64,000 bases of DNA from Olsenella sp. An285 (GTDB lineage: Bacteria; Actinomycetota; Coriobacteriia; Coriobacteriales; Atopobiaceae), in the NCBI RefSeq assembly GCF_002159625.1, contig NZ_NFIZ01000009.1, positions 1 through 64,000 of the forward strand, written 5' to 3'. Every line of letters begins with the position of its first letter. Position 1 is the stretch's first letter. This document shows, piece by piece, positions 10,957 through 53,890 of this stretch. The notes under the pieces were generated by a model. That model was not told where the DNA came from. It made no database searches and worked only from the letters and a program-made list of their open reading frames with translations. Both the position numbers and the translations under genes were made by a program.

Positions 10957-10986
10957 GCTGCTCCTTTCTGTTGCACAAAGCGGCAC

Positions 10987-11081
10987 AAAGCGGGACGTGC
11001 CTGCTCTGTGCAGATTCTTGCACGTTTGGGGACGTGCCTAAAATGTGCAGATATTTGCACGTTTCAGGCACGTCCCGTTTT
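10987..11081. repeat. REP/BIME-like cluster A (95 bp) between aroA and aroC
   Basis: This is one of three near-identical 94-95 bp clusters in the window, with B at 40268 and C at 41210. It contains two hairpins in a row. The second has stems 11028-11049 and 11056-11076 around a GATATT loop, and the outer end reads GGCACGTCCCGTTTT. It has the same orientation as copy B. Its last base pairs overlap the aroA stop: the TAA of aroA (11080-11082, minus strand) is formed partly by the repeat's terminal TTTT. Transcribed within the aro operon, it would fold in the mRNA between aroA and aroC. Confidence 0.85.
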
Positions 11082-39257: not shown

Positions 39258-39916
39258 TGGGCGGCAAGAAGAAGCACAAGGGGGCGAGCTACACGAAAGA
39301 CCAGCAGAAGTACCTCAAGAGGCTCGAGAAGGACCTGGGGCAGCAGCTCGCGTCGAAGCCCAAGCGCCTTGCGCACTCACTCTCGGTGGCGAGGACGGCG
39401 GAGGAGCTCGCGTTCGCCTACGGCGTCGACCCCTTCCTCGCCCGCGCCGCGGGAACCCTGCACGACTGGTGCAAGGCGCTCTCCGGCGACGAGCAGGTCG
39501 CGCTCGCGCGCGAGCTGGGAGTCGACTTCGGGGTTGACCTCGAGACTGTACGGCCGCTCCTTCACGGGGTCATTGCGGCGCGCATCCTCCCGGAGCGCTA
39601 TCCCGAGCTGCCCCCCGAGGTCTGGCACGCGATTGCCGTGCACACCACCGCCGCCGTCGAGATGAGCCCCCTCGACGAGGTCATCTTCGTCGCGGACGGC
39701 ATCGAGCCCCTGCGCCACGACACGCCCGGCATCGAGAGGACCCGCTCCCTCGTGGGGAAGGTGAGCCTCGACGACCTCTTCTGGGAGTCCTTCGTCGGAG
39801 GCATCGTCTACGTGCTCGAGGGGGCTCGGCACCTCTATCCCGGCACCGTCGACGTGTACAATGGGCTTGTCGCCCACAGGGCGGAAAGGGAACGAAAGAA
39901 CAAGGAGACTGCATGA
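39257..39916 (+). CDS. yqeK: YqeK-family HD-domain protein (predicted nucleotide hydrolase)
   Basis: The 219-residue product has an HD-type metal site (His40, then His69-Asp70 in LHDWCKAL, and later His residues). YqeK members have been reported to hydrolyse diadenosine tetraphosphate symmetrically. It has a Lys-rich N-terminal extension of about 25 residues. Position between nadD and rsfS is the classic one and supports the call. ATG at 39257 overlaps the nadD stop (TAATG). Confidence 0.88.
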   Translation: MGGKKKHKGASYTKDQQKYLKRLEKDLGQQLASKPKRLAHSLSVARTAEELAFAYGVDPFLARAAGTLHDWCKALSGDEQVALARELGVDFGVDLETVRPLLHGVIAARILPERYPELPPEVWHAIAVHTTAAVEMSPLDEVIFVADGIEPLRHDTPGIERTRSLVGKVSLDDLFWESFVGGIVYVLEGARHLYPGTVDVYNGLVAHRAERERKNKETA

Positions 39917-40269
39917 CAGCAACGCCTCTCGAGATCGCAAAGGTGGCCGCCCTCGCGGCGGACTCGAAGAAGGCTGGCCAGATCGTCCTTCTCGACCTGT
40001 CCTCCAAGACCGACGTCTGCGACTACTTCCTCATCTGCTCCGGTGAGAACACGCGCCAGGTGGATGCCATCGTCGACGAGGTGCGCGAGAAGGTCTCGAA
40101 GAACTGCGGCATCTCTCCCATCTCCTGCGAGGGGCGCGAGAGCCTCTCCTGGGTCCTCGTGGACTACGGCTCTGTCGTGGTCCACGTGTTCCGCCCCGAG
40201 TCTCGCGACTTCTATCGCCTCGAGACCCTCTGGGGCGACGCCCCCCGCGTCGACCTCGACCTTGCCTAA
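39913..40269 (+). CDS. rsfS: Ribosome silencing factor RsfS
   Basis: RsfS binds L14 and blocks subunit joining when nutrients are low. The 118-residue product has the family blocks GQIVLLDLSSKTDVCDYFLI, SGENTRQVDAI and DYGSVVVHVF. It overlaps the yqeK stop (ATGA). Its own TAA stop (40267-40269) is shared with the first bases of repeat cluster B, so the mobile unit abuts the end of the gene. Confidence 0.96.
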   Translation: MTATPLEIAKVAALAADSKKAGQIVLLDLSSKTDVCDYFLICSGENTRQVDAIVDEVREKVSKNCGISPISCEGRESLSWVLVDYGSVVVHVFRPESRDFYRLETLWGDAPRVDLDLA

Positions 40270-40362
40270 AACGGGACGTGCCTGAAACGTGCAAGATTTT
40301 GCATATTTAGGGACGTGCCTGAAACGTGCAAACTTCTGCACGTTTCAGGCACGTCCCGTTTT
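40268..40362. repeat. REP/BIME-like cluster B, left flank of the RAYT gene
   Basis: The outer arms are a perfect 26-bp inverted repeat (40268-40293 and 40337-40362, beginning AAAACGGGACGTGCCTGAAA). Inside, the right half folds into a 21-bp perfect hairpin (40310-40330 with 40337-40357, loop AACTTC). It is an inverted copy of cluster C on the other side of the transposase gene and lies in the same orientation as cluster A. Confidence 0.9.
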
Positions 40363-40451
40363 GTGCAAATTCTTGCATAAAACAAGTTGATGATTAACAT
40401 TTATCCTTTAATTCGATAGCATCCTCTTAATAGTCGTTTATGGGGGTGCAC

Positions 40452-41204
40452 ATGAGAGGGCCAAGAGAAAAATCGGAGCACGGCTTCTACCATGTCGTTA
40501 TGAGGGGGAGCGGGAGGCAGATTCTCTTCGAAGACGACGCCGCGCGGTGCCGCTTTCTCGAGCTCTTGTCGCACGGTCTCGAGAAGTGCAAGGTCAAGCT
40601 GCTCGCATGGTGTCTTATGAGCAATCACGTTCACCTTCTCGTCTGTGACGAGGAGGAGGGCCTCAGCAACCTTCTCCATGATCTTCAGACATCGTTTGCC
40701 ATCTACTTCAACCACACCACCGGACATGTGGGGCATGTCTTTCAGGGCAGATTCTCGAGCGTTGCGATTTGCTCTGACGAGCAGCTGCTGCAGGCAGTTC
40801 GTTACATTCATGACAACCCGGTAAGGTCGGGTCTGTCCCCGCGGGACGAGTATCCGTGGAGCAGCTACCACGAGTATGCCCCTGGCCCTGCCAGCCTTAT
40901 CTCCCCAGAGCTCATTCTTGACATGGTTGGCGGTAGGGAGCGTTTTAGTAAGTACAGCGAAGAGGGCGGTTCTGACGGCTATGTCTTTCGATGCGGGGTG
41001 CGCTACGACGACGAGGATGCGATGTTGGTTGCCCGTCGTGCGCTTGGCTCTGTTGCTCCCACCGCTCTGAAGGCGCTGGTTCCGTCCATGCGCGACCCTC
41101 TATTGCAGCAGCTCAGGGATGCGGGGCTCACCGTTCGTCAGATCGAGCGCGTCACCGGAATCGGTCGCAGTACCATCTCTCACGCAACTCGGCGACGCGC
41201 ATGA
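40452..41204 (+). CDS. REP-associated tyrosine transposase (RAYT, Y1/HUH family)
   Basis: The 250-residue product is a single-strand Y1 transposase of the IS200-like RAYT branch. It has the HUH metal site in SNHVHLLV (His59, His61), the catalytic tyrosine region VRYIHDNPVRSG (Tyr118), and a C-terminal helix-turn-helix (about 226-247). Such proteins are thought to move or maintain short palindromic repeats. ATG at 40452 was chosen over 40440 because GGGGGTG precedes it. The gene and its leader are AT-richer than the neighbours, suggesting transfer. It sits in the convergent gap between rsfS and dinB, enclosed by inverted repeat clusters. Confidence 0.92.
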   Translation: MRGPREKSEHGFYHVVMRGSGRQILFEDDAARCRFLELLSHGLEKCKVKLLAWCLMSNHVHLLVCDEEEGLSNLLHDLQTSFAIYFNHTTGHVGHVFQGRFSSVAICSDEQLLQAVRYIHDNPVRSGLSPRDEYPWSSYHEYAPGPASLISPELILDMVGGRERFSKYSEEGGSDGYVFRCGVRYDDEDAMLVARRALGSVAPTALKALVPSMRDPLLQQLRDAGLTVRQIERVTGIGRSTISHATRRRA

Positions 41205-41209
41205 TGCTC

Positions 41210-41303
41210 AAAACGGGACTGCCTGAAACGTGCAGATATCTGCACGTTTCAGGCACGTCCCCAAATATGCAAATCCTTGCACGTCTCAGGCACGTCCCGT
41301 TTT
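41210..41303. repeat. REP/BIME-like cluster C, right flank of the RAYT gene
   Basis: This is the reverse complement of cluster B with a few changes. One base is missing in the left arm (CGGGACTGCC), making it 94 bp. The strong hairpin now comes first (41215-41234 with 41241-41261, loop GATATC) and the degenerate one second. The outer right arm, TGCACGTCTCAGGCACGTCC onward, runs 41278-41303. Confidence 0.9.
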
Positions 41304-41311
41304 GGGCAAGG

Positions 41312-42571
41312 CTACTCGTCGTCCTTGTGCATCGGTGCGGTGCCGGTGGTGTGGCCGCGGAACCTGAGCTCGCGGCCGTAGCCCACGACGCCGTCGCCAA
41401 ACCGCTCCCTGAGGCGGTCCGTCACCCGACCGAGCTCGGACCTGTCGCGTGCGCTCTGCCCCTCATCCTCGGGGAAGAGGCTCATCTGGCTCGGGGCGGC
41501 GGCACCAAAGCCGGAGACGCCCACGCCGACGAGGCGCACGCGATGCCCGGGCGCCCACAGCTCGTCGAGGAGCCCCACCGCAACCTCGCCGAAGACCCGC
41601 TCGTCGCTCGTGGGGGCGGGGAGCTGCCGCTGCGCCGTCCTGGCATGGCTCACGTCGAACTTGAGCTTGAGGGTTACCGTGGAACCTTCAAGCCCCTTCT
41701 TGCGCAGGCGTCGCCCCGTCATGGCGGCTATGTGCCTCACGGCCGCCACGAGGTCGTCGCGATCGGCGAGGTCCCGGTCGAACGTCCGCTCGTTGCTCAC
41801 GGACTTGACCTCTTCGGGCGCGGCGGCCTCCACCACCCGGCTGCGCTCCTCTCCGGCCGCGCGCACCCTCATGCGTGGCCCGAGCACGCCGAACTCCCGC
41901 TCGAGCGCTCGCTCGTCCGCGCGGGAGAGCTCGCCGAGCGTGCGGATCCCCAGGTCCTTGAGGCGCCGCTCCGTCGCAGGTCCCACGCCGCTCATCGCGC
42001 CAACGGGTAGCGGTGCCAGAAAGGCCCGCTCCGTGCCGGGGAAGACCACGGTGAGCCCGCGCGGCTTCTCGCGCTCCGAGGCGATCTTCGCGACGGTCTT
42101 GTTCACGCCCAGGCCTATCGAGCAGGTGACGCCGAGCTCCGCCACGCGCGCCTGTATGCGCCGGCAGATGGCGATGGGGCTCTCTCGCGAGTAGCGCCCC
42201 GGGGTCACGTCGAAGAAGGCCTCGTCGATGGAGACCTGCTCGACGAGCGGCGTCTCCGCGCAGAGCACGTCCATGACCGAGCGGCTCACCTCCCGGTAGC
42301 GGGCGAAGTTGCCGCGGGTCCAGATGGCGTCGGGGCAGAGGCGGCGCGCCGTGGCGGACGGCATGGCGGAGTGGACCCCGTAGCGTCTCGCCTCGTAGGA
42401 GGCGGTGGAGACGACGCCCCTGTGCTCGGCGCTTCCGCCAACGATGACGGGGAGCCCGCGCCACTCCGGGTGGTCGAGCTGCTCCACCGAGGCGAAGAAC
42501 GCGTCGAGATCGAGCAGGCCCACCGCCGGGCCCGCCCAGTCGAGGGCATCGCTGTTGCGCACGTCATCCAT
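41312..42571 (-). CDS. dinB: DNA polymerase IV (Y family)
   Basis: A translesion polymerase. The 419-residue product has DLDAFFASVE (metal Asp), SIDEAFFDV (catalytic Asp-Glu), GLGVNKTVAKIAS and a helix-hairpin-helix thumb region. QMSLF near residue 375 fits the sliding-clamp binding motif. It follows the histidine kinase gene by seven bases on the minus strand. No ribosome site precedes the ATG at 42571, but TATAAT (42578-42583, minus strand) ends six bases before it, so a leaderless transcript is possible. No LexA box was recognised. Confidence 0.94.
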   Translation of the reverse strand: MDDVRNSDALDWAGPAVGLLDLDAFFASVEQLDHPEWRGLPVIVGGSAEHRGVVSTASYEARRYGVHSAMPSATARRLCPDAIWTRGNFARYREVSRSVMDVLCAETPLVEQVSIDEAFFDVTPGRYSRESPIAICRRIQARVAELGVTCSIGLGVNKTVAKIASEREKPRGLTVVFPGTERAFLAPLPVGAMSGVGPATERRLKDLGIRTLGELSRADERALEREFGVLGPRMRVRAAGEERSRVVEAAAPEEVKSVSNERTFDRDLADRDDLVAAVRHIAAMTGRRLRKKGLEGSTVTLKLKFDVSHARTAQRQLPAPTSDERVFGEVAVGLLDELWAPGHRVRLVGVGVSGFGAAAPSQMSLFPEDEGQSARDRSELGRVTDRLRERFGDGVVGYGRELRFRGHTTGTAPMHKDDE

Positions 42572-53859: not shown

Positions 53860-53890
53860 CTGTAAATTGGGGACAGTCCCCAATTTACAG
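53860..53890. repeat. 31-bp perfect palindrome, second REP-like family
   Basis: Arms of 15 bp (CTGTAAATTGGGGAC and its complement) surround a single central A. It lies just after the ppdK terminator and before dgt. The GGGGAC/GTCCCC core is reminiscent of the RAYT-linked clusters, but the flanks (TGTAAATT) are different, so it is treated as a separate repeat type. Confidence 0.75.

Follow-up and report, generated by a model that had tools for sequence, protein, structure and literature searches.

The window analyzed here, a stretch of 64 kb (G000:C33:1-64000), belongs to the 2.41 Mb draft genome of a gut actinobacterium, in 33 contigs (G000, the source genome). It contains a unit of ~1050 bp (40262..41311), in which a transposase gene is enclosed by two inverted hairpin clusters; neither the unit nor its clusters were assigned a strand. 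Upstream lies rsfS, encoding a ribosomal silencing factor (39913..40269, + strand; Pfam RsfS, E 1e-32), and downstream dinB, encoding a Y-family DNA polymerase IV, in convergent orientation (41312..42571, - strand; Pfam IMS, E 6.5e-46). As stated in the original prediction, the clusters abut the ends of these two genes: rsfS ends at 40269 within the repeat, with cluster B (40262..40372) covering its last codons and the stop codon, and dinB ends at 41312, immediately beyond cluster C (41205..41311). The proposed exact bracketing of a RAYT gene by inverted clusters of ~95 nt was also recovered, as B and C are inverted copies with arms of 92 nt (40260-40351 and 41220-41311) that are 91% complementary, and the Y1 gene between them is intact. 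The 26-nt outer repeat of cluster B is perfect (40268-40293 and 40337-40362), as had been reported. The clusters had further been described as two hairpins inside a long outer repeat; the outer repeat was found, but three half-sites, i.e., one full palindrome and half of a second, describe each cluster better. These are located at 40273-40293 (+), 40310-40330 (+) and 40337-40357 (-) in cluster B and at ~41215-41234 (+, one base missing), 41241-41261 (-) and 41278-41298 (-) in cluster C. An AT-rich leader (40373..40451, + strand, 34% GC) separates cluster B from the gene. No Rfam matches were obtained across 39800-41700.

The gene, RAYT1 (40452..41204, + strand), is an intact open frame for a Y1/HUH transposase of 250 amino acids (Pfam Y1_Tnp, E 1.3e-11), which probably starts at 40452 rather than at 40440. 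Its match to NCBIfam REP_Tyr_transpos (E 2e-19) reached 69.7 bits, under the family cut-off of 80. The HUH motif (H-V-H) is encoded at ~40626-40634 and the catalytic tyrosine at ~40803-40805; in an alignment with 35 relatives, H61, H63, Y120 and N124, as well as an NP motif, showed no variation. A separate C-terminal domain of ~50 residues contains a helix-turn-helix (~41085-41190). This region carries a conserved LxVRQIERLTGIGR motif in the alignment of the relatives, helices at residues 213-247 in the AlphaFold model (pLDDT 87.8) and a weak HTH_5 match, below the cut-off, at residues 221-248. Among PDB entries, the model matched 4er8 best (E 6e-8), a structure of E. coli TnpA-REP in complex with a REP hairpin; the IS608 and ISDra2 transposases followed. 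The gene is AT-richer than its surroundings, as originally noted, with 58% GC (GC3 67%) compared with 69% for the window, and 1.2% of 750-bp windows have a GC content as low. The nearest named relatives of the protein come from Olsenella, Thermophilibacter and Collinsella, in agreement with the suspected Coriobacteriia host.

Seven copies of the 21-nt half-site GGGACGTGCCTGAAACGTGCA lie in the window, compared with 0 in 100 shuffles. The core of the window copies reads GGGACGTG with C, A or G in front of it and deviates slightly from GGGGWSAS. Genome-wide, 61 half-sites were found at ≤3 mismatches and 0 with the reversed control. They form 32 clusters, corresponding to 29 dispersed places in addition to B and C (~31 places); the clusters at the end of contig C14 and at the start of C30 were counted as one, a single site split by a contig break as judged from the close relative G018. 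The proposed search for further clusters has thus revealed a genuine repeat family. One dispersed copy, cluster A (10983..11081, no strand assigned), lies in the window and occupies the same place in G018. The usual unit is a near-perfect palindrome of 70 nt with two inverted copies of the half-site: an outer arm of 11 nt (TTGCACRAAAS or variants), GGGACGTGCC, TGAAACGTGCA and a loop of 6 nt, followed by the complement of all. As single-stranded DNA, it is predicted to fold into one hairpin of 32 bp (-44 kcal/mol, z -15). Complete units, 26 in the source genome and 17 in G018, are REPIN-like inverted pairs, not of the GTAG type, and no conserved GTAG foot was found in any RAYT1-family cluster read out from the source genome. 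Pseudomonas REPINs differ from these repeats, which lack the GTAG tag, are present in tens and not hundreds of copies and form a near-perfect palindrome.

Four further RAYT loci were identified in the source genome (C1:249532, C29:43189, C32:70076 and C1:213327). Of the five loci in total, four are full-length, RAYT4 containing an internal stop codon, and the one at C1:213327 is broken; each of the five lies between inverted hairpins of its own. The full-length paralogs share 46-51% identity with RAYT1 and have different ends. Each of RAYT1 to RAYT4 has a separate repeat family within this one genome: the RAYT2 repeat, TTGACAA-GGGACWGTCCC, was found at 63 sites, the RAYT3 repeat, AATTGGGGACWGTCCCCAATT, at 75 sites and the RAYT4 repeat, TGACAAAAGGGACAGGG, as 27 hits, with zero in the control in each case, and each of these three repeats also serves as the inverted flanks of its own gene. 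In the RAYT3 repeat the strands can be told apart by the central A/T only. Relatives of RAYT2 and RAYT3 occupy conserved places in other genus members. Flanking hairpins with a GGGGAC-type core, and with a stem that differs from gene to gene, are present in most of the named Coriobacteriia relatives; fewer Bacillota have such flanks. At window position 53869, a palindrome of the RAYT2/RAYT3 repeat type, GGGGACAGTCCC, was observed.

Systems of this kind have been described before. TIRtrons or TIRYTs, reported by Di Nocera et al. (2013; PMC3733652), combine a RAYT-like Y1 gene with inverted flanking hairpins that carry a GGGGWSAS motif; some of the TIRs make up repeat families of moderate size, arranged as dimers or in clusters. 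They were equated with TnpAREP subclass 2.1 and with RAYT group 1 of Bertels et al. (2017) by Quentin et al. (2018; PMC6006769). The unit studied here carries a Y1 domain with HUH motif and catalytic tyrosine, a C-terminal helix-turn-helix and inverted flanks with a GGGGWSAS-like motif, and by its domain layout and flanks it fits the TIRtron/TIRYT kind (RAYT group 1, subclass 2.1). Like RAYT1, subclass 2.1 proteins consist of a Y1/HUH core of ~140 amino acids and a C-terminal helix-turn-helix; no REP-like sequences were found near their genes in that study (PMC6006769), whereas the repeats near RAYT1 are obvious and dispersed. Compared with the TIRtrons of 2013, the repeat is here a doubled, near-perfect palindrome, and several matched gene/repeat pairs are found in one Coriobacteriia genome (PMC3733652). 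E. coli TnpA-REP (4er8; PMC8266576) shares the HUH motif and the tyrosine, but is only 20% identical to RAYT1 and its chain of 165 residues has no C-terminal helix-turn-helix domain.

A classical GTAG-type REP/RAYT pair (REPtron) as in gammaproteobacteria, the group of the known RAYT genes named in the original prediction, would involve the same enzyme superfamily and similarly inverted repeat pairs. In Pseudomonas, two short inverted repeats likewise make up one hairpin unit, and the RAYT gene is single-copy (PMC3116915). Nevertheless, without the GTAG tag at the repeat foot, with the GGGAC core inside the palindrome and with the extra C-terminal domain, such a pair is highly improbable here, and the unit is instead of the TIR type. 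No Coriobacteriia were found by name in the text of Di Nocera et al. (2013; PMC3733652), and a literature search for extragenic palindromes with a transposase in Coriobacteria returned nothing. The kind is already known and occurs here in a lineage for which no description was found, with unusually clear evidence for one repeat family per transposase and for the evolution of the hairpins as units.

At the rsfS-dinB junction the unit is missing in G018 and in most of the genus, a comparison with relatives that the original prediction had proposed. The junction in G018 measures ~20 bp and contains neither gene nor repeat, and in other genomes rsfS and dinB are spaced by 17-45 bp. Four other genus members (G014, G029, G024 and G027) carry a RAYT that is 53-58% identical to RAYT1 and adjoins rsfS or dinB, and several Collinsella also have a RAYT between the two genes. 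In the tree, the rsfS-locus RAYTs of the genus members group with RAYT1 with moderate support (92/58) and those of Collinsella fall elsewhere. Because of this distribution and grouping, the rsfS-dinB junction is regarded as an old or repeatedly used RAYT site. The orientation of dinB relative to rsfS is reversed in many genus genomes, whether or not a RAYT lies between the two genes. G022 (C150, L249) has a solo hairpin, TTGCCTAAAAGGGGACGGGTACGTTTTAGGCAT, at the junction without a transposase, which is possibly a scar or a lone repeat insertion.

The repeats differ where the rsfS-locus RAYTs differ. Apart from one hit in G014, the RAYT1 repeat is restricted to the source genome and G018, and 28 other genomes gave 0 hits. 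G014 and G029 have 28-30 forward matches to CCTAAAAGGGGACAGGCCCCTTTTAGG, G024 and G027 have 14-16, mostly of a TC/GA variant, and the source genome and G018 have none. In G014 and G029 the repeat is a simple hairpin of 33 nt, TTGCCTAAAAGGGGACAGGCCCCTTTTAGGCAA, of which G024 and G027 carry a variant. Therefore, transposase and repeat have diverged together at this locus. A classical insertion sequence of the IS200/IS605 type, in which the gene and its ends move as a whole, was also considered. The inverted hairpin ends abutting the gene exactly and the missing unit in G018 and most of the genus would be in line with such an element. However, insertion sequences of this type multiply as near-identical copies, whereas a single full copy was found here, with diverged full-length paralogs that have other ends, and a related gene is present at the rsfS locus in several relatives. 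An insertion sequence is thus considered very unlikely.

G018 contains 18 RAYT1-family repeat sites, 17 of which are at positions shared with the source genome, and the flanks of the shared sites are mostly 85-95% identical. No RAYT of >52% identity to RAYT1 was found in G018, the genome of which is 85% complete, so that a copy elsewhere is possible. Since the G018 repeats match the missing gene, the simplest history would be that G018 lost RAYT1 while its repeats persisted. The repeat at C14:16853 in the source genome is common to G018; at C1:157210 the G018 counterpart seems to hold a decayed copy, and at C29:19272 and C29:83961 the counterparts are unrelated sequence. The sites compared between the two genomes included no clean empty site for an individual dispersed repeat, so neither a target duplication nor a polarity of insertion could be derived. 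The suggestion that the family still moves or was recently active was not upheld, given the rsfS-dinB RAYTs in the four genus members and in Collinsella, the shared sites and the lack of a clean empty site; with 17 of 18 sites shared, the family may be old and static. The G018-only repeat site corresponds to a 1-kb stretch in the source genome (C28:69.1-70.1 kb; L254, L255) with HicA/HicB-like toxin-antitoxin genes, named by eye from their translations.

Core and flank divergence were compared at 15 alignable repeat sites shared by both genomes. The inner 42 nt showed 14 differences in 630 positions (2.2%) and the flanks 482 in 4056 (11.9%; Fisher p 2e-17). The outer arms vary by site, yet match their partner: arm complementarity was 0.80 in the source genome, versus a mean of 0.66 and a maximum of 0.75 in 5000 shuffles, and 0.83 in G018, versus 0.68 expected. 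At some shared sites both arms had changed together, e.g., TTGCACACTTG versus TTGCGCGCTTT on both sides. Furthermore, the 6-nt loop was exactly inverted between the two genomes at 4 of 15 sites (shuffle p 0.0008). A fifth inversion was read by eye (C30:9 versus L167), giving 5 of 16 sites (L153/L167, L020/L172, L157/L174, L035/L179 and L027/L182), and the loop was identical at two. The flanks of L182 (G018 C180:3693) match two sites in the source genome, C12:23066 and C32:65491, which may reflect a rearrangement at the repeat or a join made during assembly. Inversions of hairpin loops have been discussed for plastid DNA, so that a transposase is not required for them. Both the inverted loops and the covarying arms would be accounted for by hairpin-templated correction during replication. 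The cores could also be conserved because they are selected for a function in RNA or DNA that has no relation to the transposase.

The strong conservation of the cores, although G018 apparently lacks the gene, would also be expected for a domesticated RAYT, which no longer moves its repeats while the host uses these static sequences for 3'-end protection, termination or as replication or supercoiling sites. The repeat sites common to G018 and the finding that the RAYT is inherited at a single locus in at least two genera point in the same direction. On the other hand, the active-site residues are intact, and the repeat changes along with the rsfS-locus RAYT, a change that would be unnecessary for a repeat selected purely by the host. 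Domestication is therefore possible, but is not the reading we favor.

Instead, we consider it likely that the unit is a TIRtron with an RAYT of the helix-turn-helix type and its own repeat family, and that the gene is mainly vertically inherited and acts on the repeats in trans. RAYT1 would most likely bind the hairpin that its cognate repeat forms in single-stranded DNA upon exposure of the lagging strand, and recognition would combine the constant GGGAC core with a stem sequence private to each transposase. Cleavage beside the hairpin by the catalytic tyrosine could then allow repeats to be copied or moved in trans; what was observed is the association and co-divergence of gene and repeat. 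The gene would be inherited mainly at the fixed rsfS-dinB site and sometimes be lost, with the repeats persisting. In this lineage the repeat would have become the doubled, REPIN-like palindrome, the two arms of which may be kept complementary by hairpin-templated correction or by selection. It is puzzling that the palindromes are nearly symmetric, as this weakens the strand asymmetry on which known TnpA-REP proteins, which discriminate the strand (PMC8266576), rely. The system is thus viewed as a RAYT lineage that is old and bound to its locus, accompanied by a repeat family that diverges with it and is maintained through its hairpins.

Why bacterial genomes retain RAYT genes is an open question in the field. 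Several parallel transposase/repeat pairs are present in this one genus, together with related transposases at one locus whose repeats have diverged, i.e., specificity swaps. The source genome and G018, with and without the transposase and with 17 repeat sites in common, form a compact natural experiment in which maintenance of the repeats by the transposase can be weighed against maintenance by the host. It is rather unlikely, but conceivable, that the transposase, or replication across the hairpins, actively maintains the palindromes in place, rewriting arms and flipping loops, so that in-place processing would prevail over mainly new insertions. If this is true and the transposase is responsible, RAYTs would have a maintenance role, which would help to explain the persistence of the gene at one site.
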